The notes under the pieces are model-generated. The model did not search any database and had not been told where the DNA came from. It saw only the letters and a program-made list of their open reading frames with translations. A stretch of 58,142 nucleotides of DNA. Origin: a virus. The DNA lies in IMG/VR virus record IMGVR_UViG_3300017917_003510, positions 1 through 58,142 of that record; one strand, 5' to 3'. Made by a program: the position numbers and the translations under genes. This document shows, piece by piece, positions 3,894 through 51,869 of the stretch; within the stretch, counting starts at the first letter, position 1, and every line of letters begins with the position of its first letter.

Positions 3894-4534
3894 AGGAACT
3901 TTATTAGATCATTAAATTTAGGCTTTTGAGTTCTGTTGATATCGATCTCTAACTCGGGATCAGTGTTTGAGTAATCATATCCAATCCTTTTACCTGACTG
4001 ATCATAGATGCCTCTGCGTACTCTTTGATCGGCAGTGGCGTATCCTAAGCCTAACATCATTGTACAGACAACATCGGACCTATGTAGATATTTTGAAATC
4101 TCAGCGCCGTTAAAGGTTGCATTGAATCCAGTAGCTAATCCTAGCTCTGCTGCTGCGCACATGGCTGTTGTTGCACTTACTATAGTATCTACTCGATTTC
4201 TAAGGTTAAGATCTTCTAGATCATTATGGTTTTCTTTTTTTGAAAGGTATAGTAACAGCACCGGAGCAAGAACTTGACCGTTGAATCTTTTATCATCTGC
4301 ACCGTCTTTGGTTAGTGCTCCTTCAAAGCACCAGGTATTCTCATCATAGAGCCATTGTTTAAACTTTTTTCCTTCCTCGCTATCAGTTACAGCTAGAATT
4401 TCATACCGATATACGCCTTGCTTAGATGGGGCGAGATAAGCTGCTTCTAATACAGCGTTGATTTTTTCCGGTTCGACGGGTTTAGGATCCCACCACTTTG
4501 CTGTGAAGCGGTGCTTTAAATGTTCCTTGAGCAT
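3890..4534 (-). CDS. nitroreductase family protein (FMN-dependent)
   Basis: A 214-residue protein with the nitroreductase pattern: an N-terminal RFTAKWW stretch, EAAYLAPSKQG (phosphate/FMN-contacting region) near residue 35, and a C-terminal ATGFNATFNG and MMLGLGYA region typical of the FMN-binding fold. Such enzymes use NAD(P)H and FMN to reduce or oxidise small molecules, and some act in natural-product tailoring. It overlaps the next gene by four bases and its upstream neighbour by 53. Its substrate is unknown; context suggests a role with the adjacent oxygenase and radical SAM genes. Confidence 0.85.
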   Translation of the reverse strand: MLKEHLKHRFTAKWWDPKPVEPEKINAVLEAAYLAPSKQGVYRYEILAVTDSEEGKKFKQWLYDENTWCFEGALTKDGADDKRFNGQVLAPVLLLYLSKKENHNDLEDLNLRNRVDTIVSATTAMCAAAELGLATGFNATFNGAEISKYLHRSDVVCTMMLGLGYATADQRVRRGIYDQSGKRIGYDYSNTDPELEIDINRTQKPKFNDLIKFL

Positions 4535-5102
4535 TAAAATTTTCCAATGGCCATCTAGGCAATAAACTTAATTGTTGGAAAAAACGAAATACATCTAATT
4601 TCCAAACAGTCTGTTCGATTCCTCTATATAAAATAGTCCCGCAGTTTTTTAATGTACCTATTTTTTCTAAGGCTGGGCAATAGATATTATGCACCAGTCG
4701 TTGGGAACCAGTTTTAGATTCGTTACTGGTAATATATAGATTATTTTGAGGTTTTGCCCAACCTATACATTGAGGAATGAAATATTGTGCAGTGATATTT
4801 TGATGTTGTTGTATTGTTTTTGATACAGTTCTTAAATATCCGTCAGGGGTTTGATCAGTCAGCACACAGGTTCTAGCACAAATTCTATAACTGTTTGGGC
4901 CCATCTCGTCGAAACTATGAGCTGCAACAGAACCCACTGCTTGATCTTTATAATAGAGTATCCATACTTGTTTTTCTCTTTCGTTATCGAGAGAATCGAC
5001 CAACATTTTTTTACTGCTGTTGTTGTGATATCCCTTTTCTTCTGCACGACGATAAAAGTCAGTGAGATCTAAGTCATCTGAATATGTTGTTATACTATAC
5101 AT
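4482..5102 (-). CDS. acyltransferase-like (GNAT-type) protein
   Basis: A 206-residue protein whose first half fits a GNAT-like core: QVWILYYKDQAVGSVAAHSF, then a beta-strand-rich segment. A second half includes QYFIPQCIGWAKP and NLYITSN motifs. The assignment is by pattern only and is weak. The ATG at 5102 was preferred to an in-frame TTG at 5120. It overlaps the upstream gene by 8 bases and runs 53 bases into the nitroreductase-like frame, so the genes are probably translationally coupled. Confidence 0.7.
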   Translation of the reverse strand: MYSITTYSDDLDLTDFYRRAEEKGYHNNSSKKMLVDSLDNEREKQVWILYYKDQAVGSVAAHSFDEMGPNSYRICARTCVLTDQTPDGYLRTVSKTIQQHQNITAQYFIPQCIGWAKPQNNLYITSNESKTGSQRLVHNIYCPALEKIGTLKNCGTILYRGIEQTVWKLDVFRFFQQLSLLPRWPLENFNAQGTFKAPLHSKVVGS

Positions 5103-7530: not shown

Positions 7531-8601
7531 ATGTTCCCTTTCTCTGATTTAAAATTGGTAGAAGTTGAAATAACTTCAAGATGTCAAGCCAGCTGTCCTA
7601 TGTGTGCCAGAAATATACATGGCGGCCCTGTTAATCCTAATTTAAAATTACAAGATTGGACCTTAACTGATTTTAAGAGAATATTTTCCGATGAATTATG
7701 TACGCAAATAACAACTGTAAGATTCTGTGGCAGCTTTGGAGATCCCGTAATTAATCAAGACCTTTTAGAAATGTGTCAGCATCTAAAAGATTTAAATCCA
7801 AAATTAGCAGTTAGATTACATACCAACGGTAGTGCTAGATCCATCGAGTGGTGGAAAGATTTGGCTATAGCATTACCAGAAGATCATTTGATTACTTTTG
7901 GCATAGATGGCCTAACTGATACACACAGCCTTCATAGGATCGGAACTGACTATAATAAAATTATCGAAAACGCCCAAGCATTCATACAAAACAATGGCAA
8001 AGCCGAATGGTGCTTTATTAAATTCAAACACAATGAGCATCAGATAACTCAAGCACAGTTGTTAGCGAAAGAATACGGATTTGTTTCCTTTGCTGTTAAG
8101 AATAGTATTAGATTTAACGGAGAACCGTATCCAGTCATTGATAAAGATAGTAATGTATTGTATAATATAAATCCTCCTTCAGACAACGTTGTTAAATTTG
8201 TAGATAAAGATCTGTTAAAAGGATTTGACAAATGGTTTGAGGAAGTTAAAGTTGATTGCCACGTTTTGAAAAATAAAGAAATTTATATAGATTCTCAGCA
8301 ACACATGTATCCTTGTTGTTGGATTGCATCGGCTCCGTATCTATATCATGATCCGGTTGATATTCTTTATTCATATAAACAGAGAGCCACTGAAGAATTC
8401 TACGATGTATTAGATAGTCTCGGCGGGTTTAAATCTATTGATCTTACAAACAAAACAGTAAAACAAGTATTCGAAATGCCAGAATGGCAGTCTGTTTGGC
8501 AAACTCATTGGAATGATAAAATCTTAGTTTGTGCTAAAAACTGCGGAAACAGTAAATTAACTAAGCCTAAAGATCAGGTAATATTGAAAGTAAATGTTTA
8601 A
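7531..8601 (+). CDS. radical SAM protein (copy A)
   Basis: A 356-residue radical SAM enzyme. C18-x3-C22-x2-C25 (CQASCPMC) binds the 4Fe-4S cluster, followed by RFCGSFGDP, LHTNGS and FGIDGL strands. A C-terminal SPASM-like region has DCHVLKNKEIYID, YPCCW and CAKNC cysteines for auxiliary clusters. SPASM enzymes usually modify peptides. The tandem neighbour at 8594 is a close paralogue and overlaps by 8 bases. No Shine-Dalgarno is visible; the start is supported by the match to the paralogue's N-terminus. Confidence 0.9.
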   Translation: MFPFSDLKLVEVEITSRCQASCPMCARNIHGGPVNPNLKLQDWTLTDFKRIFSDELCTQITTVRFCGSFGDPVINQDLLEMCQHLKDLNPKLAVRLHTNGSARSIEWWKDLAIALPEDHLITFGIDGLTDTHSLHRIGTDYNKIIENAQAFIQNNGKAEWCFIKFKHNEHQITQAQLLAKEYGFVSFAVKNSIRFNGEPYPVIDKDSNVLYNINPPSDNVVKFVDKDLLKGFDKWFEEVKVDCHVLKNKEIYIDSQQHMYPCCWIASAPYLYHDPVDILYSYKQRATEEFYDVLDSLGGFKSIDLTNKTVKQVFEMPEWQSVWQTHWNDKILVCAKNCGNSKLTKPKDQVILKVNV

Positions 8602-9676
8602 GTTCTCGGAATTAAAATCTATACACGTAGAATTAACTAATAACTGTCAAGCCAGTTGTCCTATGTGTGCAAGAAACGATCACGGAGGGTTACCAAATCC
8701 TAATATCGTAATCAATGAATTATCTCTTGATGATTTTAAACAAATATTTTCTACTGAAGTTTTGACACAAATAGATCATCTTTACTTCTGTGGTAACTAT
8801 GGAGATCCTATACTATCAAAAGATCTCTTACATATTTTAGAATATTGTACGACCACTAACTCTAATTTACAAATTGATATACACACAAACGGCAGTGCTA
8901 GAACATTAAAGTGGTGGCGGAGTCTGTTTCGTGTGTTACCTAAAAAACATTGTGTTCATTTTGCCTTAGATGGTTTATCAGATACCCATCATTTGTATAG
9001 AATAGGTACAGATTTTGATCGAATTATTGAAAATGCGAAAGAATTTATTACCTGTGGTGGAACAGCAGAATGGGTTTTTCTTTCTTTTAAGCACAATGAA
9101 CATCAGGTTCATGAGGCTAAAAAGTTAGCCACCGCTTTAGGATTTAATTCTTTCAGTCATAAGGCTACTGGACGCTTTTTAGAAAAACCTTGGTTCGATG
9201 TCTATGATAAAGATGGTAAAGTAACTTACAAGATAGAACCCCCCGAGGAACACAAAATAACATTTGTCAAAAAAGAAGTAATTGAAAACTACAGACAACA
9301 TGTAGCACAAGCAGAAATACATTGCGGAGTTCTGAAGACCAAGGAAATTTATATAGATGCACACGGTCATATATGGCCCTGTTGTTTTATAGGCGCTGTT
9401 CCTTACACCTATGCTGCATTATCGGAAATAACTCATACCTATCATAAAGAAACCAAACAAGAAGTTAAAGATCTCGTTTCTTATATAGGCAGTAATAATC
9501 TCAGAGATCGATCTATTAAAGAAGTAATCGATAGCACTCAGTGGCAGGAAGTCTGGAACAAATATTGGGCTGACAAAAAGTTAGCCACTTGTGCTAGAAC
9601 CTGTGGTAAGTTCCCAGAAAAGATAATCACCCAATACGGTGATCAATTTTTAAAAACCGAGGAATTCAGTGAATAA
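8594..9676 (+). CDS. radical SAM protein (copy B)
   Basis: A 360-residue paralogue of the preceding protein. C18, C22 and C25 form CQASCPMC, then YFCGNYGDP, IHTNGSAR and FALDGL, and a SPASM-like tail with CGVLKTKEIYID, WPCCF and CARTCG. The 8-base overlap with the gene before and after indicates coupled translation of a three-gene radical SAM run. Substrate unknown. Confidence 0.9.
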   Translation: MFKFSELKSIHVELTNNCQASCPMCARNDHGGLPNPNIVINELSLDDFKQIFSTEVLTQIDHLYFCGNYGDPILSKDLLHILEYCTTTNSNLQIDIHTNGSARTLKWWRSLFRVLPKKHCVHFALDGLSDTHHLYRIGTDFDRIIENAKEFITCGGTAEWVFLSFKHNEHQVHEAKKLATALGFNSFSHKATGRFLEKPWFDVYDKDGKVTYKIEPPEEHKITFVKKEVIENYRQHVAQAEIHCGVLKTKEIYIDAHGHIWPCCFIGAVPYTYAALSEITHTYHKETKQEVKDLVSYIGSNNLRDRSIKEVIDSTQWQEVWNKYWADKKLATCARTCGKFPEKIITQYGDQFLKTEEFSE

Positions 9677-11081
9677 CATTTATTGGTTACAACCAGAAGA
9701 TACTAAGCTAGGACATTGGCAGCGTAAAGTCAAAGACCTTAGCGGAAGCGATACCTATTGTGTGCTTCCATGGATCCACTTTGCCACTCGACCCAACGGA
9801 GACATGCGACTTTGTTGTAACTCAAACAGTAGCGGTGCAGGGTTTGATCACGAAATTGGACTAGTTAAAAATGAAACAGGTCGTCCTGCTAACTTTGGAA
9901 AAGAAACTCCAATGAGCGCATGGAACAATGAGTACATGAAGTCTGTGCGTACTACGATGCTAGAAGGGAATATTCCTAGTAGTTGTAAAAAATGTTTTGA
10001 TGAAGAAAGCAAAGGTGTCGTATCAAAACGTATGTGGGAAACTGGTACCTGGGTTGAAGAAGGTATAGACATTCCCGAGTTAATCAAACAAACTCAAGAA
10101 GACGGCACAGTTCCAGAACAGTTAGTCTATCTAGATCTAAGACTTGGACATACTTGCAATTTAAAATGTATTATGTGTAGTCCCCATGACAGCAGTCAGT
10201 GGGCAGCTGATCACAAAAAAGTATTTCCGTTATTTCAACATCCTGAATTAAAAAAACAGATGGCATGGGATAGAAAAGACTTTAACAATTTTTGGCATGA
10301 GAATCCAGACTTCTGGAAAGAAATGTATGCTCAAATTCCGAATCTAAAACAAGTTTATTTTGCCGGAGGCGAGCCTTTAATGATTAAAGAACACAAACTG
10401 TTCTTAGAAGAAATTATTAGACAAGGCTACGCTGACAAAATATTGGTGCGGTACAATACCAACGGTCTTCTTATAGACGATGAAATTATTAATCTATGGA
10501 CTCAATTTAAAAAAGTTAAAGTGGGGTTTAGTATTGATGCTGTAGGGGATCGAAACTATTATATTCGTTATCCCAGTGACTGGGATACCATTGTGCAAAA
10601 TTTGCACAAGCTAGACAATACTCCAAACAACATACAGGTCAGCATTGCTACCGCTATTCAAATTCTAAACATCAAACACTTGCCTGACTTTGCTCGCTGG
10701 AAGGTATCACAAAATTTCAAGAAAGTTAATTTTGAAAATGTCACAGGCGGAATCGAAGCAGGCGGCGGAATATTCAACATGCACCTGCTTTACATTCCTA
10801 CATTCTTAAGTATCAGATGCTTGCCTGCGGAAGATAAAGCAGAAGTTCGAGAAAGTTTTGCAAGGTTAGCTAATTGGTTACATGAAAACTATCGACAGAA
10901 TCAGGACTTTTGGAAAACTAATCCCTATGGTTGGCGTCGATGGAAGGCAGTATTAGATTTTATGGATGGTGAAGATCATACACATCTACTGCCCGCATTT
11001 AGAGAATATATTTCTACTATGGACGCAGAGAGAAGATTGAACTTCAAAGAAACGTTCCCGGAACTAAAACATTTATTATGA
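9669..11081 (+). CDS. twitch-domain radical SAM protein (copy C)
   Basis: A 470-residue protein of the twitch-domain-containing radical SAM type. An N-terminal auxiliary-cluster region carries C31, C49, C50, C106 and C109 (RLCCNSN, SCKKCFDEE). The radical SAM barrel follows, with C163, C167 and C170 (CNLKCIMC), FAGGEPL and YNTNG. It starts with GTG at 9669 behind a GAGGA. It is paired with gene D and mirrors the minus-strand pair at 12042-14238. Product unknown. Confidence 0.88.
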   Translation: MNNIYWLQPEDTKLGHWQRKVKDLSGSDTYCVLPWIHFATRPNGDMRLCCNSNSSGAGFDHEIGLVKNETGRPANFGKETPMSAWNNEYMKSVRTTMLEGNIPSSCKKCFDEESKGVVSKRMWETGTWVEEGIDIPELIKQTQEDGTVPEQLVYLDLRLGHTCNLKCIMCSPHDSSQWAADHKKVFPLFQHPELKKQMAWDRKDFNNFWHENPDFWKEMYAQIPNLKQVYFAGGEPLMIKEHKLFLEEIIRQGYADKILVRYNTNGLLIDDEIINLWTQFKKVKVGFSIDAVGDRNYYIRYPSDWDTIVQNLHKLDNTPNNIQVSIATAIQILNIKHLPDFARWKVSQNFKKVNFENVTGGIEAGGGIFNMHLLYIPTFLSIRCLPAEDKAEVRESFARLANWLHENYRQNQDFWKTNPYGWRRWKAVLDFMDGEDHTHLLPAFREYISTMDAERRLNFKETFPELKHLL

Positions 11082-12103
11082 GTATAATAGCAGTAGATCC
11101 CAATTCCGGAAAAGATACTCTTTACTTACAGTATCAATTTACAAATACCTGTAATTACAAATGCTGGTATTGTTGGCCAGAAAGTCATGCTGCCACTCAT
11201 CGTTGGCCTGATCTAGAATTAGTAAAAAAGAATCTCAGCCATTTGATCAATCATTATAAATCAAATGGAAAGAAAAAAATTGTTATTAATCTAACGGGTG
11301 GCGAACCCACCCTTTGGCCCGACTTAAACAAGTTTATAAAATATTTCTACGAAGAACATGATTGTAATTTTAGTTTAATTACTAACGGTTCGAGAACATT
11401 AAGCTGGTGGCAAACTTATGGAAAATACTTTGATAGGATCACTATAAGCGTTCATCATGAAAGCTGTGATACGGAACACATTAATCGAATCGCGGATTGT
11501 GTTTATAAACAAGGAGTAATAGTAGAAGCTCAGGTATTAATGGATCCATATCATTGGGATAAATGTAAAAATTTAATAACTGATCTTAAAAACAGCAAAT
11601 ACCGTTGGATGATTTCGGTCAAAGAGATATTAGTTGAAAATCAATTAATTTATAACAACGATCAGAAAAAGTTTTTAGAAAAGTCCGTAAAAAGAAAACC
11701 AAATTTCTTCTATCATTTTTTTAACAACAAATTAGACAATAAAAAATTTACAGTTACTCATGAAACAGGTTATACTGAAAAGATAGATTACAACACTATC
11801 ATCGTCAATGACTGGAATCATTTCAAAGAGTGGGAATGTAATCTAGGAGTTGATAGTATCTTTATAGACTTTGCAGGAAAAATATCCGGCACCTGCGGAG
11901 AATTTTTATACGGCGAACCCTCTTATCATAACTTACACGAATTGAATTTTATAGAGAAATTTAATCCTACAATAAAACCAGTGATTTGTACCAAAGAGGG
12001 ATGTTATTGTAGTCCAGAAGTAAATCTTAAGAAACGAAAAATTATACCGATTGTACCTGCTTTGTTATTGGAATATCCGCTGCACAGGTACAGTGGTCTC
12101 TAG
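11078..12103 (+). CDS. radical SAM protein (copy D)
   Basis: A 341-residue radical SAM protein. CNYKCWYC gives C25, C29 and C32, followed by NLTGGEPT, LITNGSR and ISVHHE. A C-terminal Cys set (WECNLGVDS, GTCGEF, ICTKEGCYC) suggests auxiliary clusters. It is ATGA-coupled to copy C. Its last 62 bases overlap the convergent copy E gene, so the final 20 or so residues after the CYC motif may be an accidental extension. It is a paralogue of copies E and H. Confidence 0.88.
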   Translation: MSIIAVDPNSGKDTLYLQYQFTNTCNYKCWYCWPESHAATHRWPDLELVKKNLSHLINHYKSNGKKKIVINLTGGEPTLWPDLNKFIKYFYEEHDCNFSLITNGSRTLSWWQTYGKYFDRITISVHHESCDTEHINRIADCVYKQGVIVEAQVLMDPYHWDKCKNLITDLKNSKYRWMISVKEILVENQLIYNNDQKKFLEKSVKRKPNFFYHFFNNKLDNKKFTVTHETGYTEKIDYNTIIVNDWNHFKEWECNLGVDSIFIDFAGKISGTCGEFLYGEPSYHNLHELNFIEKFNPTIKPVICTKEGCYCSPEVNLKKRKIIPIVPALLLEYPLHRYSGL

Positions 12104-12944
12104 TACAAATAATAGGGCCGGTCGGAACAATAAATGTTCCTTGATATATATTTCCTAAGCTACCTCCTACTCTACAGGTAGCACGATGGACATCTCCATC
12201 CCAGTTAATCATTAAACTTTCAATGCCTGCATTACAACTCCATCCTTTAAATTTGTTAAGATGAAGTTTGATGACATCGTTAGCGTGAATAATTTGTTCT
12301 CCAGAATCTATATTACAGTTAGGATCAGCTGTGGCATCTTGTTCTAAAAGCCATTCTAGATCATTGCCGTTGTATCTTAGATCATCGAACACATTATGAT
12401 CACCATCGGTCCAGCGTATTCTTCGAACAGCATACTTAATACCTAATTCTCGAAAAGCTTTAACGGTATCTCTTACCTGAGACATCTTGTCGTGGTGTGC
12501 CATTATATTGACAAAGAATTTTCTTTCAGTTGAACCATGATATTTAACGATAGTATCAAATACTCTGGTCCATTCAAACTCGAAATGCAGGCTAAAAACT
12601 AAATGATGCCAAAAAATCTCATTTTCTAAATACCACCGATAACCTCTAGTACCATTAGTTGTTACATTTACCCACGAAACATCTTTTCTTTTTAGATATT
12701 CTAGAAAGTCTTCTATGTCAGGATGCACACAAGGTTCTCCTCCTGTGAGACTGATACGCAGAGGTTTGCCTAATTTGCAGAGGTGATCAACAGCCTGTTC
12801 TAATACATTGATATCAGTATGAGGAGAGAAGTTATCGTGTATTGAACTAGGGCAATAACTACAGTCATAGTTACATCTTTTACCTAGATTCCATTCAACC
12901 TTTATAGAATCCTGATGAGGCCAAACACTGGTTATCTTATACAT
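12042..12944 (-). CDS. radical SAM protein (copy E)
   Basis: A 300-residue radical SAM protein. CNYDCSYC gives C24, C28 and C31, followed by SLTGGEPC, VTTNGTR and FSLHFE. A C-terminal WSCNAGIES, ATCRVGG and ICTRDHCTC set is shared with copy D. It overlaps copy F by 8 bases and converges on copy D with a 62-base overlap. Confidence 0.88.
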   Translation of the reverse strand: MYKITSVWPHQDSIKVEWNLGKRCNYDCSYCPSSIHDNFSPHTDINVLEQAVDHLCKLGKPLRISLTGGEPCVHPDIEDFLEYLKRKDVSWVNVTTNGTRGYRWYLENEIFWHHLVFSLHFEFEWTRVFDTIVKYHGSTERKFFVNIMAHHDKMSQVRDTVKAFRELGIKYAVRRIRWTDGDHNVFDDLRYNGNDLEWLLEQDATADPNCNIDSGEQIIHANDVIKLHLNKFKGWSCNAGIESLMINWDGDVHRATCRVGGSLGNIYQGTFIVPTGPIICTRDHCTCAADIPITKQVQSV

Positions 12945-14238
12945 ACGGTTTAAATTCCGGAACAGTATCTAATAAGTTTTGATTTCTTGTTGAATCTAGC
13001 TTACGATTGAATTCTAGAAAGTCGGACCATAAATGACTTTGATCTTTGGCACGTAGATAGTTAATATTATCTTTGATCTGTTGCTGTGTGATTTTTTCTA
13101 ATATAGGATTTTTTTGAACAGCATCGAAAGACCATACTGCTCTTCCAACAGTTTCTAATCTCTGTATAGCGAGTTCTTTAAGTTCTCGCGGTAATACCTG
13201 TGCTGAAAGGCAGTTAGGATAGCTGACTCTATGGCTATAGAAAACTATGTTCATCTCATTGATGAAATAATCAATGCACTCAGCTGCCTGTAAAATGTTA
13301 CCAGCCTGCGCGGTAAATGCTCCTACAACACGACTGACATTAGGGAACGAGCGAAATACCTTAACGTTTTCTTCTACGGTAGCAAATGAAGAATTAGAAC
13401 GAATATAGTCATAAACAGAATGAATACCGTCAATGCTAACATTAACCGCAACGCTTCGGAAATGTGGCCAATAATCGTGGATAGTCCGCGAGCCTTTAAT
13501 TCCAATTGTTGTGCCGTTAGTTGCGTATTTGAGTTCGATGTTTTTTCCATAGGGCTTTAGCATGTCTAATATTTTGTAGTGCTGTGGATCCATAAGTGGT
13601 TCTCCACCAGCGAATTCTACACGTCTAAAATGAGGTAATAGTCGTTCAAAACTAGCCCACCAGTTATCTGTGTCTTCGAAAGGACAGAGATATTTGCTGG
13701 TCTGTAATCCCAGTCTATTGATTACTGGAACAAGATAATTGTTTTCTTTCTTATAAAATTCTTCAACTTGATCCCAGTCATTCCATGACGTACTATCCAT
13801 AGGATGACACATACGGCATTTTAAGTTACAAAGATTATTCAGCTTGATTTCCATAGTAGGAAATTCAAAAGGCATTGTGTAATCTTCACGGAGTTGTTGC
13901 AGAGCATTAGGATAGAGATTAATACGTGCTTCTGGAATAACACCGTTAATGTGTCTTTGACGTAGGCTTTCTACTCCTTGATCCTCTAGATCAAAACAGG
14001 GCTTACATACTTCAGGACGTTCTCCGCAGAGCACTTGCCTGCGAACTTCTCGCATGGTGTCGTTGTTCCAAATTTCTTCCAGACTAGAGTCTTGTATAAA
14101 ACCGATAGGAGCCGAACGGCAACAGACTTTAACTGCTCCATCTTCTCTAGTAGCTAACCCTGTAAAAGGGTGCATACAAAATGTTTTACTTTGATTGTTC
14201 AATTGCCCAAGCTCTCTCTTTACACCAGAAACATTCAC
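12937..14238 (-). CDS. twitch-domain radical SAM protein (copy F)
   Basis: Counterpart of copy C. An N-terminal Cys region (TFCMHPF, KVCCRSA, EVCKPCFDLE) precedes a barrel with CNLKCRMC, FAGGEPLM and YATNGT. The start is uncertain. The frame is open to 14304 but would then overlap the upstream ATPase by 119 bases. A GTG at 14238 or a TTG at 14202 preceded by AGAGAG are more plausible; GTG is used here (433 residues). It is coupled to copy E, forming a pair that mirrors C-D. Confidence 0.85.
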   Translation of the reverse strand: MNVSGVKRELGQLNNQSKTFCMHPFTGLATREDGAVKVCCRSAPIGFIQDSSLEEIWNNDTMREVRRQVLCGERPEVCKPCFDLEDQGVESLRQRHINGVIPEARINLYPNALQQLREDYTMPFEFPTMEIKLNNLCNLKCRMCHPMDSTSWNDWDQVEEFYKKENNYLVPVINRLGLQTSKYLCPFEDTDNWWASFERLLPHFRRVEFAGGEPLMDPQHYKILDMLKPYGKNIELKYATNGTTIGIKGSRTIHDYWPHFRSVAVNVSIDGIHSVYDYIRSNSSFATVEENVKVFRSFPNVSRVVGAFTAQAGNILQAAECIDYFINEMNIVFYSHRVSYPNCLSAQVLPRELKELAIQRLETVGRAVWSFDAVQKNPILEKITQQQIKDNINYLRAKDQSHLWSDFLEFNRKLDSTRNQNLLDTVPEFKPYV

Positions 14239-14917
14239 CGCAAGTTGGGACATATTGTCTTGGCATATAATTTTTGTAACTAAATCCAGGTATTTCTCCT
14301 TCACAACTTCTTGTGATATCGAACAAATCTTCTAGACCTAATTTTATATACTGCGAAACAATCCAAGATTTATCAACAAATCTAAAAGGATGTATTGCCC
14401 AACGATCCATGTGTTTCATTTTTACTAAATGGCCGTTGTCATCCGAAGGATCTATATCTCTAGTAGGCATACCGCGAAAATCCACGTCTTTGGGATTTCT
14501 AGTTACCGCGTTATAGTAAGCATCAATATTATTTTTAAAGCAGACATATTCGGCAAACGCTCTAAGTTCAACGTTATCACCGCTGACTAATTTTCCATAT
14601 TCGTCAGTTATTGTGGGTCCTCGATCACCCCATTCTAATTCCGGGGGAATAAAATTTGTGTGACGCATGAAATTTATCTTTGGGAATTTGTATTGTAACC
14701 AATGATAGACTTTTAAACTATCCCATTCTTGCCAAGGCTTAGTTTTCCAGTTTCTTGTGTGGCTTATAATATGGATTTCAAACGGTTCTATTTCATTAGC
14801 TCTAATATTTTCGCAAAGAAGATATGCCAACAATGCACTATCAGCACCACCACTTAGACTTATAGCTATTTTTTTCCATTCGTTATCGAAAGGTATTTCT
14901 ACAGAATCGATAATCAT
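14186..14917 (-). CDS. QueC-like PP-loop ATPase
   Basis: A 243-residue PP-loop ATP pyrophosphatase. LSGGADSA (residues 21-28) is the nucleotide-binding loop. A C-terminal CEGE, then CGECFWCKER, is the zinc site typical of 7-cyano-7-deazaguanine synthase (QueC) and relatives. QueC turns a carboxylate into a nitrile through an amide; other members form amides. No QueD, QueE or DpdA-like gene is visible here, so deazaguanine DNA modification is not supported from the window. Amidation of the cluster's product is possible. Confidence 0.8.
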   Translation of the reverse strand: MIIDSVEIPFDNEWKKIAISLSGGADSALLAYLLCENIRANEIEPFEIHIISHTRNWKTKPWQEWDSLKVYHWLQYKFPKINFMRHTNFIPPELEWGDRGPTITDEYGKLVSGDNVELRAFAEYVCFKNNIDAYYNAVTRNPKDVDFRGMPTRDIDPSDDNGHLVKMKHMDRWAIHPFRFVDKSWIVSQYIKLGLEDLFDITRSCEGEIPGFSYKNYMPRQYVPTCGECFWCKERAWAIEQSK

Positions 14918-26648: not shown

Positions 26649-26724
26649 TGGTGCGCAGAGCGGGATTCGAACCCGCGACACGAAGCTTTAGAGACTCCTG
26701 TTCTTACCACTGAACTATCCACGC
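26649..26724 (-). tRNA. tRNA with CUA anticodon (amber suppressor)
   Basis: A solitary tRNA outside the array. The acceptor GCGTGGA pairs with TCTGCGC (two G-U), the D-arm GTTC/GAAC and T-arm are canonical, the discriminator is A and CCA is encoded. The anticodon stem GGAGT/GCTTC encloses CTCTAAA, with U33 before CUA. Shifted readings break the stem or U33. CUA reads UAG. The amino acid identity cannot be told from the sequence alone. Confidence 0.9.
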
Positions 26725-27722: not shown

Positions 27723-29228
27723 TTAATTTTCTTTCTGTTTTTTTAAGTAAGCATCGAGTTCTTTAAGAGAAAACGTATGCATGGTTTTACTTTTAGTTTC
27801 ATTTAGATATAATGATAAAGTTGTGTCTGTTTCATCTAATTTTATTCTATGAATTTGAAAAAAATCAGAAATAGTTTTTTTATCAAAATGATCAAGCCCT
27901 GCTAAAGTATAATTCCATAACCATTGTCCTGCATATCCCTCGTGGATATCAAAATCAATCTTTCTAGTTAATCTCTGTTTAGCTAAATTAATAATTTGAT
28001 CTGTTCGTTGTGTTCTTGTTAGATTAGTTGTAACATGATTCCAGAACGGAGTGTCTATTCTTCCTCCGCTGTAGTGCAAAGAAATAAAATCAGCCATGTG
28101 ACTATATAATTTGTCAATCCTCTGATTATAAGAGTTTATTATTTCTTCACTGAACGAGGTGTCTTTAGTTTTTCCAAGACAATTTAAAATTAAATCATAT
28201 ATTTGAATAATAGAACAATGAATACTAGTTGCTTGAAGAGGTTCCAAAAAAGCTGAACTAAGTCCTACAGATAGACAGTTTTTGATCCATACTTCTTTTA
28301 GTCTTCCTGATTGAAATTTAATGGATCTACCCTTCGAAACCCCAGTGCGATATCTTTCTTCGAGTTCTTTGATAATATCTTCTTCATGAGCAAATTGATC
28401 CGAATAGACATATCCTCGACCTATTCGATGTCTGGTAGGGATCTCCCAAACCCAGCCACTGTCCGAAGCATGGGCAGTGGTATAAAGATTTTTTTCGTTA
28501 TTGTCGTGCTCTAGAACAAACGGCATACCTGTATTCACAGGAAGATATTTGCTGTAATCAATCCAGGCGGCATTTAGTTTTTTTATTAAAACTTGAGAAA
28601 AACCTGTGCAGTCAATAAACAAGTCTGCTGTTATAATTTCTCCTTGATTAGAAACTAGAGCAGAAATATTTCCTAATTGATCTAGTTTGATATCGACAAT
28701 TTCGCAATCTTTGTGTAATACTTTATTTTCAATACTTTTTTGTTTAAGGAATTCGATGGTCTTGAATGTGTCGAGATGTAAGGCAGAATTTCCAAAAGTA
28801 CTTTTTAATTTATTATCTTTTCCGATATACAAGTCTGTTTTTTTAATTTCCATTAAAGTTCCAAAACGGCTCGCGTAATTAATATTAGTGTCATTAAGTA
28901 TAGAATGATAAAGTAAGAGATCTACTTTAGAATTAAAAGAATAAGTGCCGTCTATAGGAGATAAGAAATTTTTAGAATTCTTATTCCAATTTATAAAATT
29001 AATACCGTATTTTGGAAGAGCATGTGTTTCTTTAAAAATTTCATCGAAATCTAATCCGCATTGTATTAGAGAGTCTAAAAATAATGAGGTCGTCCCTTCC
29101 CCCACACCGATTGATGATATTTTGGAACTATCTATAGAGGTTATATTAATATCGGGTCGATTTTTTGATATTAATAGGGCGGTAAGCCAACCTGCAGTTC
29201 CGCCGCCTACGATAACTATATTAATCAT
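27723..29228 (-). CDS. flavin-dependent (tryptophan-type) halogenase
   Basis: A 501-residue protein of the tryptophan halogenase family. GGGTAGW (8-14) binds FAD. WVWEIP (259-264) is the WxWxIP signature that separates halogenases from monooxygenases. K73 (LPKYG) is placed like the catalytic Lys of PrnA/RebH. All hallmark residues are present, so halogenation is plausible, needing FADH2 from a separate reductase. The substrate is unknown. It overlaps the upstream gene by 8 bases. Confidence 0.9.
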   Translation of the reverse strand: MINIVIVGGGTAGWLTALLISKNRPDINITSIDSSKISSIGVGEGTTSLFLDSLIQCGLDFDEIFKETHALPKYGINFINWNKNSKNFLSPIDGTYSFNSKVDLLLYHSILNDTNINYASRFGTLMEIKKTDLYIGKDNKLKSTFGNSALHLDTFKTIEFLKQKSIENKVLHKDCEIVDIKLDQLGNISALVSNQGEIITADLFIDCTGFSQVLIKKLNAAWIDYSKYLPVNTGMPFVLEHDNNEKNLYTTAHASDSGWVWEIPTRHRIGRGYVYSDQFAHEEDIIKELEERYRTGVSKGRSIKFQSGRLKEVWIKNCLSVGLSSAFLEPLQATSIHCSIIQIYDLILNCLGKTKDTSFSEEIINSYNQRIDKLYSHMADFISLHYSGGRIDTPFWNHVTTNLTRTQRTDQIINLAKQRLTRKIDFDIHEGYAGQWLWNYTLAGLDHFDKKTISDFFQIHRIKLDETDTTLSLYLNETKSKTMHTFSLKELDAYLKKQKEN

Positions 29229-47789: not shown

Positions 47790-47797
47790 TATTTATC
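47790..47797 (-). promoter_or_regulatory. late-promoter-like box GATAAATA
   Basis: NATAAATA-type box on the minus strand, 7 nt before the ATG at 47782, inside the end of the bilin reductase gene. Confidence 0.5.
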
Positions 47798-48473
47798 GTA
47801 TTTCGGGAAACAGGCAATCCTGTATAAACACCCTAACATCTTCTTCGTTGAGCCCTAAACTAGTCATTACTTTAGGAGTATGTGGGTTTTGCTTTTGATT
47901 TTGAGCATAAAAGTTCTGTTCGAACGTGCTGTCTGCTATAGAATGATTAGTTTCACCCACGGTTTCTATGTAATGATTAACCATTATATGTGCTAAAGAC
48001 TCTATTTGACTTAATTCCGTTTCGTCCTGTACATTACCAGCAGCTACCATATTAGAACTAAAAATACGCTGTGCCCAGTCTGGTAACTCACGTTTTTTAA
48101 TCCAGTCATATCTGCTGACTTCTTCAGCAAAGTATTCTAGCATCGGATGATTTTTATCAGTGGTAGGGCTATAATCTAAAAAGCAGCCAGTGATTTTGTT
48201 TTTACCGGCTATAACATCAAAGCCGAAAATAGGAGCAGAATTATGAATATGCGGAAAAATACAACAGTGCATCATCCAAAGTCCTTTAGATGATCTAGCA
48301 TCTACTACATCGACGTGTGCTCGACGATACCGATCACTAGTCCATACACGATTAACCCAACCAGGTTGATTAAAACGAGCCATTTCAGGCTCGAACGTCT
48401 CAACTCCGGTTTCATTAAACTTCTGTTCGAAGTAGTGCTGAATCTGAATCAACGTATTCCAAACTTGACTCAT
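47793..48473 (-). CDS. ferredoxin-dependent bilin reductase
   Basis: A 226-residue protein of the ferredoxin-dependent bilin reductase family (PcyA, PebS, PcyX). RVWTSDRYRRAHVDVVDAR, LWMMHCCIFPH, PIFGFDVIAG and GCFLDYSP are the core of these enzymes. They reduce biliverdin with ferredoxin electrons to phycobilins. A PebS- or PcyX-type phage enzyme is likely, but the subtype needs a tree. It overlaps heme oxygenase by 59 bases, so substrate supply and reduction are coupled. Confidence 0.88.
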   Translation of the reverse strand: MSQVWNTLIQIQHYFEQKFNETGVETFEPEMARFNQPGWVNRVWTSDRYRRAHVDVVDARSSKGLWMMHCCIFPHIHNSAPIFGFDVIAGKNKITGCFLDYSPTTDKNHPMLEYFAEEVSRYDWIKKRELPDWAQRIFSSNMVAAGNVQDETELSQIESLAHIMVNHYIETVGETNHSIADSTFEQNFYAQNQKQNPHTPKVMTSLGLNEEDVRVFIQDCLFPEIR

Positions 48474-48987
48474 TTAGTTCCTTCATAATAGCGATAGCAT
48501 GATCAAAAGCTACATTAGCTTCATCACCCATAGAATCATTGATCTTTTGTCTAATTGCTGTTTTCAAATCGTCAGCATTTTTAAATTGATAAAATCTTCC
48601 TTCTCCGGGAACACGACTAGCAATCATCTGTCCTCCGAAAAGATCTCCCATGTGTCTTACATACATATGAGCCATGATTTTATCTTTATCTTCTAAGTTA
48701 GAAAGATACTCTGCATATGTTCTAGTCGATGGAAGGATAGCATAATTGGCACCGCCGGTTAGTTCGCATAGATCATCATAGATAGCTCTGCATCTGGCTA
48801 AACCGTCCAATCCTTCGAATAATCCGTGAGCAGCAGCCTGATGTTCTAGAATAGAATATACTGCCATCATTTGTGTGAGATAACAAGCATATTGTTCTTT
48901 GGTGATTTTCCCGCTGAGTAGAAGTTTAGCAAATTCAGTTCTTTCAGCGTCGTGATGTTTTTCTTTGGTTAGGTCTTTTAAACTCAT
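48415..48987 (-). CDS. heme oxygenase
   Basis: A 190-residue heme oxygenase. An N-terminal H (KHHDAERTEF) is the heme ligand, and YVRHMGDLFGGQMIASRV is the distal helix signature. It opens heme to biliverdin, iron and CO, using ferredoxin electrons. Cyanophage ho1 genes are usually paired with pebS or pcyA, as here with the gene at 47793. A GAGGAG lies before the ATG at 48987. Its job may be bilin supply or iron release. Confidence 0.92.
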   Translation of the reverse strand: MSLKDLTKEKHHDAERTEFAKLLLSGKITKEQYACYLTQMMAVYSILEHQAAAHGLFEGLDGLARCRAIYDDLCELTGGANYAILPSTRTYAEYLSNLEDKDKIMAHMYVRHMGDLFGGQMIASRVPGEGRFYQFKNADDLKTAIRQKINDSMGDEANVAFDHAIAIMKELNESSLEYVDSDSALLRTEV

Positions 48988-49042
48988 ATAATTCTCCTCG
49001 CTGATATTTAACTTGCCAAACTTTTAGTTGATATGAATCTGA

Positions 49043-49345
49043 TTATTCTTCTTCCACTTGTATTTGTAATGGAAATCCGTGTTCGCGAGCAAGTGTTGTA
49101 CTTTCTACACCTTTCTGTTCTGCGATTTCGAAACTATACACACCTGCAACAGCAGCACCTGTTTCATGTATTTCTAGTGTAATATCTCGAGCAGTTTTTT
49201 CAGTATGTCTGAAAACAGCAGTTAATAGTTCAATGACAAATTCCATAGGAGTTTGATCATCGTTTAAGAAAACAACCTTCCACATTTTTGGAGGTTCTAA
49301 ATTGATTTTAATTTTTTCGTCGATTTTTACGTCTGCTGTGCTCAT
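49043..49345 (-). CDS. clpS: ClpS adaptor
   Basis: A 100-residue ClpS. The core is WKVVFLNDDQTPMEFVIELL with a VF helix and VYSFEIAEQK, the N-end-rule-binding and ClpA-contacting parts. ClpS passes N-degron substrates to ClpAP. Together with phage ClpP it could redirect host proteolysis. A CGGAG precedes the ATG. A GGGGGAG/CTCCCCC hairpin sits in its leader. Confidence 0.92.
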   Translation of the reverse strand: MSTADVKIDEKIKINLEPPKMWKVVFLNDDQTPMEFVIELLTAVFRHTEKTARDITLEIHETGAAVAGVYSFEIAEQKGVESTTLAREHGFPLQIQVEEE

Positions 49346-49390: not shown

Positions 49391-49828
49391 TTACTTAACC
49401 TCTACGACTTCGATCACTCGAGGTTTGAGTTCCTCAGGAACGATGCGCTCTAACATCACTGTTAGAATACCGTTCTCAATTTGGGCACCCTTTACTTCGA
49501 TATGTTCAGCTAACGGAAATACTTTAGTAAAGTCTCTGCTGGCTAATCCTCGATGTAGATATTGCTCTGGATGATATTCTGTAGTTTGGCTTTCACCTTT
49601 GATAGTAAGATGATTATCTTCTAGTTCTACAGTAATCTCAGTCTTAGAAAAACCAGCCACAGCGACCTGTATGAGATAGTCGTTATCACCGGTTTTAATA
49701 ATATTATGTGGAGGATAGTTGTTGTTGATTTGATTAGCAAATCGACGCTCCATGTCGTCGAACATGCGATCAAAACCTACAAGTGCTCTAGCAAGAGCGT
49801 TAGTGTCAAAACGTTGTAATTGTGTCAT
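49391..49828 (-). CDS. small heat shock protein (Hsp20/IbpA type)
   Basis: A 145-residue alpha-crystallin-domain chaperone. YLIQVAVAGFSKTEITVELEDN, HLTIKGE, RGLASRDFTKVFPL and IENGILTVMLERI are the Hsp20 core, with a C-terminal ELKPRVIEV motif for oligomer contacts. It holds unfolding proteins for DnaK. Its leader holds a ROSE-like hairpin that covers the AAGGAG, and a consensus-type promoter lies upstream. Confidence 0.95.
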   Translation of the reverse strand: MTQLQRFDTNALARALVGFDRMFDDMERRFANQINNNYPPHNIIKTGDNDYLIQVAVAGFSKTEITVELEDNHLTIKGESQTTEYHPEQYLHRGLASRDFTKVFPLAEHIEVKGAQIENGILTVMLERIVPEELKPRVIEVVEVK

Positions 49829-49883
49829 TTTATTTTCTCCTTAATTAAGCAAGAATTTATGAGGCCTCACCCGAGCACCTCAT
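49829..49883 (-). promoter_or_regulatory. ROSE-like RNA thermometer in the hsp20 leader
   Basis: The AAGGAG (49837-49842) can pair with TTCTT-G-CTT upstream (49835-49855), leaving one bulged G. The strand holds UUGCU (49848-49852), the UYGCU motif that marks ROSE thermometers opposite the Shine-Dalgarno. An ATGAGG/CCTCAT hairpin (49859-49883) precedes it, as in multi-stem ROSE leaders. Known ROSE elements control bacterial hsp20 genes. Confidence 0.75.
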
Positions 49884-49888
49884 AAGTT

Positions 49889-49917
49889 AGTTTAACATTT
49901 CTCTGTCTGTGTGTCAA
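49889..49917 (-). promoter_or_regulatory. sigma-70 promoter for hsp20
   Basis: TTGACA, 17 bp, TAAACT on the minus strand, about 60 nt before the hsp20 ATG. It overlaps the end of dnaK. Confidence 0.7.
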
Positions 49918-51788: not shown

Positions 51789-51861
51789 TTTTTCCTCCTT
51801 AAATTAAGCGAGTAAGTTTTGGGCAACTGCCCTATGTAGAACCCGAAGCGTTCTACAAAAA
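51789..51861 (-). promoter_or_regulatory. ROSE-like RNA thermometer in the dnaK leader
   Basis: The AAGGAG (51795-51800) can pair with CTC-G-CTT (51806-51812) around AATTT, again with one bulged G. The strand holds UCGCU (51807-51811), which fits UYGCU. Two more hairpins lie upstream: GTAGAAC/GTTCTAC and GGGC/GCCC. The core is the same design as in the hsp20 leader. Confidence 0.7.
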
Positions 51862-51869
51862 TATTTATC
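51862..51869 (-). promoter_or_regulatory. late-promoter-like box GATAAATA upstream of dnaK
   Basis: NATAAATA-type box on the minus strand, overlapping the guaC stop, 73 nt before the dnaK ATG. It fits a transcript whose leader begins just before the dnaK thermometer. Confidence 0.5.

Follow-up and report, generated by a model that had tools for sequence, protein, structure and literature searches.

A ROSE-type RNA element is carried by many phages upstream of their chaperone genes. In the window, by which we mean the whole stretch of 58,142 nucleotides analyzed here, taken from a virus record of IMG/VR, it precedes both hsp20 and dnaK, and in all probability it serves there as a phage-encoded switch of access to the Shine-Dalgarno (SD) sequence. 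An earlier note on this DNA had proposed a ROSE-like hsp20 leader in which the SD is paired with one bulged G, and this is borne out by RNAfold, by covariation, and by the leaders of related phages. The coordinates given there are correct to within two bases, although the element extends beyond the SD hairpin described, and the second copy before dnaK (51789-51857, minus strand) had been missed.

The Two Leaders of the Window

The hsp20 leader (49829-49885, minus strand) was read from the sequence as two hairpins, and RNAfold at 37 °C returned exactly these two (−16.7 kcal/mol, z = −2.86), with 3 of 200 shuffles as stable (table 1). In hairpin I the bulged G lies at 49876, flanked by a U.G and a C-G pair. 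Hairpin II, as RNA UUCUU[G]CUU-AAUU-AAGGAGAA, pairs UUCUU-[G]-CUU with the SD AAGGAG around one bulged G at 49850, and the ATG start codon stands at 49828. The product is a true Hsp20 (Pfam HSP20, 2.2e-17), as the earlier note had named it, which places a small heat shock gene downstream of the element. In gene order, dnaK precedes hsp20, and a putative promoter at the end of dnaK, to judge from its letters, would start an mRNA just before hairpin I. Downstream, on the same strand (47793-49345), follow clpS, a heme oxygenase, and a ferredoxin-dependent bilin reductase, the latter two a bilin-making pair on a phage. Elsewhere the window encodes several radical SAM proteins and a tryptophan halogenase-like protein (7531-14304 and 27723-29228), as well as fourteen tRNA genes, all but one in a single cluster (96-2226 and 26652-26724).

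Table 1. Coordinates of the hsp20 and dnaK leaders and of adjoining features in the window
Feature	Position	Strand	Details
hsp20, 145 aa	49391..49828	-	alpha-crystallin domain
SD of hsp20, AAGGAG	49837..49842	-	sequestered in hairpin II
Hairpin II (thermosensing hairpin), hsp20 leader	49835..49855	-	TTCTT[G]CTT-AATT-AAGGAGAA; ROSE_2 alignment
Hairpin I, hsp20 leader, RNA	49857..49885	-	UUAUGAGGU[G]CUC-GGGU-GAGGCCUCAUAA; single bulged G
Hairpin I, hsp20 leader, DNA	49857..49885	-	TTATGAGGT[G]CTC-GGGT-GAGGCCTCATAA
Putative sigma-70-like promoter, end of dnaK	49889..49917	-	TTGACA-17-TAAACT; from sequence
dnaK, 624 aa	49914..51788	-	
Hairpin II, dnaK leader	51795..51812	-	CTC[G]CTTAATTTAAGGAG; bulged G at 51809
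Middle hairpin, dnaK leader	51821..51832	-	GGGCAGTTGCCC (RNA GGGCAGUUGCCC); recurs in many relatives
Hairpin I, dnaK leader	51835..51857	-	TGTAGAAC[G]C-UUCG-GGTTCTACA; bulged G at 51849
T4-late-promoter-like octamer (putative), just upstream of dnaK leader	51862..51869	-	GATAAATA

The dnaK leader folds into three hairpins (z = −3.16). Its hairpin I reads GUAGAAC[G]C-UUCG-G-GUUCUAC as RNA, and its hairpin II, CUC[G]CUUAAUUUAAGGAG, sequesters the SD at 51795-51800. It is resembled by 65 related dnaK leaders and five groES leaders, and a third hairpin, GGGCAnnnnTGCCC, stands between hairpins I and II in most of the dnaK leaders (L082-L160) and in some hsp20 leaders. Just 5′ of hairpin I, most dnaK leaders (L082-L161) carry an octamer (T/G)ATAAATA resembling the T4 late promoter, which suggests late expression of a message whose 5′ end is hairpin I.

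Conservation and Covariation among Phage Leaders

The search with the Rfam ROSE models that had been put forward as a check gave no significant score for the window leader (ROSE_2, RF01832: 18.4 bits, E = 0.29 in 501 bases, below the gathering cut-off of 65), so that the assignment to the ROSE type rests on comparative evidence. For ROSE_3 (RF02523, gathering cut-off 43 bits) the window was not listed and no phage leader reached the cut-off, the best scores being 37.6 bits for L099 (E = 4e-4, 69-kb scan), 33.2 for L222, and 30.5 for L109.

Among 80 viral loci with related Hsp20 proteins (46 to 90% identity), the two hairpins are kept in almost every hsp20 leader, and the bulged core is preserved even where the proteins are only 46% identical. 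A covariance model, R1, was built from eight phage leaders with the window excluded; as MAFFT aligned the mixed leaders poorly near the SD, an ungapped subset was used. R1 recovered the window hsp20 leader at 35.4 bits (E = 5e-7 over 725 kb, E-values being rough), and its match to the window dnaK leader was too weak because of the middle hairpin of the latter. Over 14 pairs in 150 leaders, 97.8% of the cells are paired, and 236 double changes were counted where shuffles gave 65 and slid partners 21 at the highest, figures that lean towards the structure since the alignment was fitted to it. Covariation is strong in the stem of hairpin I, where the sequence turns over freely with compensatory changes.

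The association with chaperone genes was also recovered without protein information. When viral contigs were scanned with a DNA pattern for hairpin II, SD, and ATG only, a chaperone gene lay downstream in 117 of the 121 distinct matches listed, all totals being lower bounds. Among these matches a scripted count gave 98 hsp20, 13 dnaK, and 1 groES; five further chaperone cases were read by eye, namely three hsp20 genes cut by the end of the locus (L174, L185, L224), a cut dnaK (L223), and an hsp20 standing second in its operon (L201). The other 4 matches are unrelated. In this last locus (4184-4847) the element precedes a 65-aa ORF of unknown function, which is followed directly by hsp20, ClpS-like, and IMP dehydrogenase-like genes. 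Another viral contig with ROSE-type leaders, at groES and hsp20, encodes a permuted, alphaproteobacterial-type tmRNA (L217, 3178-3493).

Both hairpins were seen by eye in 21 of 23 hsp20 leaders from named phage records, the two in which they were not seen being Vibrio PWH3a-P1 and SCTP-2. Carriers of the element include Mosig, HTVC008M, HTVC115P, Melnitz, Atu_ph07, S-CAM22, Syn33, Syn1, S-SM2, P-SSM2, P-SSM3, and PA5oct, and most, not all, of these named-phage elements are supported by R1 at E below 1 in 68 kb. In the hsp20 leaders L051-L080 the dnaK stop codon lies inside or beside the loop of hairpin I, so that ribosomes ending dnaK would open this hairpin.

The element occurs in virus after virus, long-cultured phages included, and its presence on dnaK and groES takes it beyond the range described for ROSE. 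For Salmonella groES an upstream RNA thermometer is already known; to our knowledge, no ROSE element has been known on either groES or dnaK. In the literature ROSE is invariably placed on small heat shock genes of bacteria, and the thermometers recorded from phages number only about three (PMC4166951, PMC11182007). According to a 2024 paper, two had been known, cIII and blyA, before it added a sigma-70 case (PMC11182007). The statement that phage thermometers on chaperone genes are little described therefore holds, and our literature search for a phage ROSE element found no paper.

Predicted Temperature Response and Concerted Bulge Identity

By homology, the element is very likely a thermometer. 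At low temperature hairpin II would pair UUCUU-G-CUU with AAGGAG and keep the ribosome off; since the single bulged purine and the adjacent U.G pair would weaken this helix, warming would open it and the chaperones would be made. Hairpin I is stable and would not be expected to melt. In Pseudomonas the two-hairpin ROSE element has been proven to act as a thermometer, with melting confined to hairpin II (PMC3669281), and the role of its hairpin I has been called not fully understood (PMC3669281).

We infer melting and control of translation from this likeness, and the energy models prove little on the point, since they fail for accepted bacterial ROSE elements too: for these leaders almost no SD opening is predicted, and for the phage SD only a gradual one. 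In the window, the exposure computed for the SD of hsp20 climbs from 0.07 (15 °C) to 0.22 (42 °C), and that for dnaK from 0.03 to 0.36 between these temperatures. Across 150 phage leaders the predicted mean fraction of unpaired SD is 0.14 at 15 °C and 0.32 at 45 °C, compared with 0.38 and 0.45 when the 5′ part is shuffled and 0.39 and 0.51 for 16 window genes with an SD (hsp20 and dnaK included), all leaders in this comparison having been truncated at 60 bases, a length at which the dnaK fold is broken.

The two hairpins have a motif in common, a pyrimidine followed by a bulged purine and a C opposite GG, and the identity of the purine is concerted between them. Among 325 distinct leaders we observed 228 G/G, 87 A/A, and 5 discordant cases, 4 leaders without a bulge in hairpin I, and 1 that is cut off; a parser blind to base identity had first read 214 G/G, 82 A/A, and 29 others, and its failures were then read by eye, a step that was not blind. 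Where a leader has both bulges their types agree in 315 of 320 cases. Of the 143 contigs on which leaders of at least two genes were readable, 142 show a single type common to these genes, the sole exception being L290 (dnaK A in hairpin I and G in hairpin II, hsp20 A/A). The other discordant leaders are L324 (G in I, A in II) and the group L311/L326/L368, whose hairpin I is built differently. Six apparent exceptions (L042, L109, L125, L131, L132, L134) proved false, the pattern having caught UUGCUUACUU in the wrong register.

The A-type is seen in one phage clade, with G replaced by A in both hairpins of hsp20, dnaK, and groES. On a tree of 152 Hsp20 proteins it needs about three changes, and a single clade is not rejected (AU p = 0.849); repeated convergence was dropped on this ground, and the switch probably represents one or two events, each at both hairpins of several genes. 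With so few events, the agreement between the bulges may go back to a single switch or to two, and a test on independent pairs, with too few switches, did not reach significance. Other causes, a change of host for example, could also have produced a clade-wide change of the bulge.

A shared motif whose purine switches at once across genes suggests that something recognizes the bulges of hairpins I and II alike. As such a reader the phage Hsp20 itself is the best candidate; like E. coli IbpA, it would repress its own message and let go of it when busy with unfolded protein. We put forward tentatively, as a possibility open to considerable doubt, that Hsp20 represses a chaperone regulon of hsp20, dnaK, and groES by reading the bulged purine twice per leader, and that one clade switched the purine from G to A at all sites together. 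Through R93, E. coli IbpA attaches to the 5′ UTR of its own message and represses translation, and both R93 and Y34 are required for this binding (PMC10474464). In the 152 phage Hsp20s the equivalent of Y34 is Y in 130 and F in the rest, and that of R93 is R in 134; it is K in the remaining 18, a residue that abolishes RNA binding in E. coli IbpA and so counts against Hsp20 as the reader. The window Hsp20 has R and Y at the two sites. Positions were counted along a ruler sequence which we take to be that of IbpA; its R83, R93, R97, K98, and Y34 fall where the positions in PMC10474464 stand. The column best separating the two types is the equivalent of IbpA A54, with Thr in 30 of 31 A-type and Ala in 112 of 115 G-type proteins, and Ser occupies it in L290 and L324, the two genomes whose bulges are mixed. 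As the matching change on the protein side, residue 54 is suggestive only, a lead and no more, since any clade has marker residues and the A-type has about one origin. The predicted Hsp20 structure is a moderate model (pLDDT 72).

A thermometer without any reader is a real possibility, if short of a probable one. Hairpin I would then be no more than a stabilizer of the 5′ end and a folding aid, and the bulge and its change from G to A would simply be inherited within one clade. Hairpin II of Pseudomonas is thermoresponsive alone (PMC3669281), hairpin I stands at the likely 5′ end, and the A-type clade may have a single origin. A mere stabilizer, however, could do without a bulge. In fact hairpin I hardly ever lacks one; the bulged base is invariably a purine and, with few exceptions, sits between a pyrimidine and a C opposite GG, whereas the letters of the stem turn over completely. 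Descent, moreover, explains one switched site but not both hairpins of two or three genes, and such single-site switches are hardly seen elsewhere in the tree.

It is improbable that the bulged purines pair like with like (G.G or A.A), docking hairpin I on hairpin II and thereby setting the melting point: matching bulges within one leader would be accounted for, but not the type shared among dnaK, hsp20, and groES of one genome, and the hairpins are about 8 to 28 bases apart, often with a third hairpin. Less credible still, to the point of being very improbable, is a target for a phage translational regulator, RegA or RegB, in place of a thermometer. T4 RegB cuts at GGAG, and regA often lies before the hsp20 of cyanophages; ROSE elements of bacteria, in which the same two hairpins with bulges occur, nevertheless work without such proteins, and, unlike the targets of RegA or RegB, the phage element is restricted to chaperone genes. 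That hairpin I, G+C rich and directly after dnaK, is only the terminator of that gene and hairpin II a chance pairing is excluded by the comparison of leaders, as no U run follows hairpin I, the same pair of hairpins stands before dnaK and groES, and about 320 distinct leaders retain hairpin II.

Should Hsp20 indeed read the bulged purines, hairpin I of ROSE would gain a function and the RNA feature read by IbpA-type proteins would be named. The phage sequences amount to a natural mutagenesis in which the bulge of hairpin I is retained and varies, across genes, in step with the SD hairpin, and this natural variation makes both the role of hairpin I and IbpA-type recognition directly testable.

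Relation to Known Regulatory RNAs

Three features of the ROSE class are found in the phage element: two to four hairpins (two for hsp20 and three for dnaK, with covariation), a U(U/C)GCU imperfectly paired to the SD with a bulged G (here UUCUU[G]CUU/AAGGAG), and a small heat shock gene downstream, beyond which the dnaK and groES copies go. The architecture agrees with all three Rfam ROSE models, in each of which U(U/C)RCU lies opposite the SD with a bulge and a stable hairpin precedes; the bulged G stands in the first hairpin of the RF00435 consensus and in both hairpins of the ROSE_3 consensus. The bacterial relatives of the window Hsp20 (37 to 47% identical) are mostly alphaproteobacterial, and RF00435 elements score above cut-off in three of the seven of their loci scanned.

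The freshwater-2 RNA (RF02980) scored 22.8 bits (E = 0.29) at 49826-49895 of the window, below its gathering cut-off of 49.9. Like the hsp20 leader it ends in AAGGAGAAAA-AUG, the stretch from SD to AUG; unlike it, its consensus lacks the ROSE core. The two families might be related.

ROSE of the alphaproteobacteria (RF00435) and ROSE_2 of E. coli ibpA (RF01832) share with the phage element the core of the SD hairpin and one bulged G in the first hairpin of the models, but the bacterial elements are longer than the window hsp20 leader, with three to four hairpins. The closer likeness is to ROSE_3 of Pseudomonas ibpA, which has two hairpins, is of similar length, and likewise stands before a small heat shock gene; its first hairpin is stable and carries a bulged G ahead of CC...GG, and in its second U(U/C)GCU pairs with the SD. 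The phage element differs in being virus-borne, in standing also on dnaK and groES, in often having a third hairpin, in the bulged A of both hairpins of some leaders, and in a best score of 37.6 of the 43 bits.

The self-repression of E. coli IbpA offers a parallel on the protein side, an Hsp20 with R93 and Y34 acting on a ROSE-type leader, with the difference that the phage regulon would include dnaK and groES and that the candidate RNA binding is read from residues. The lambda cIII, SPbeta blyA, and phage sigma-70 fourU thermometers are likewise phage-encoded and let temperature set access to the SD, but they have other structures and genes, none of them being ROSE and none standing on a chaperone gene.
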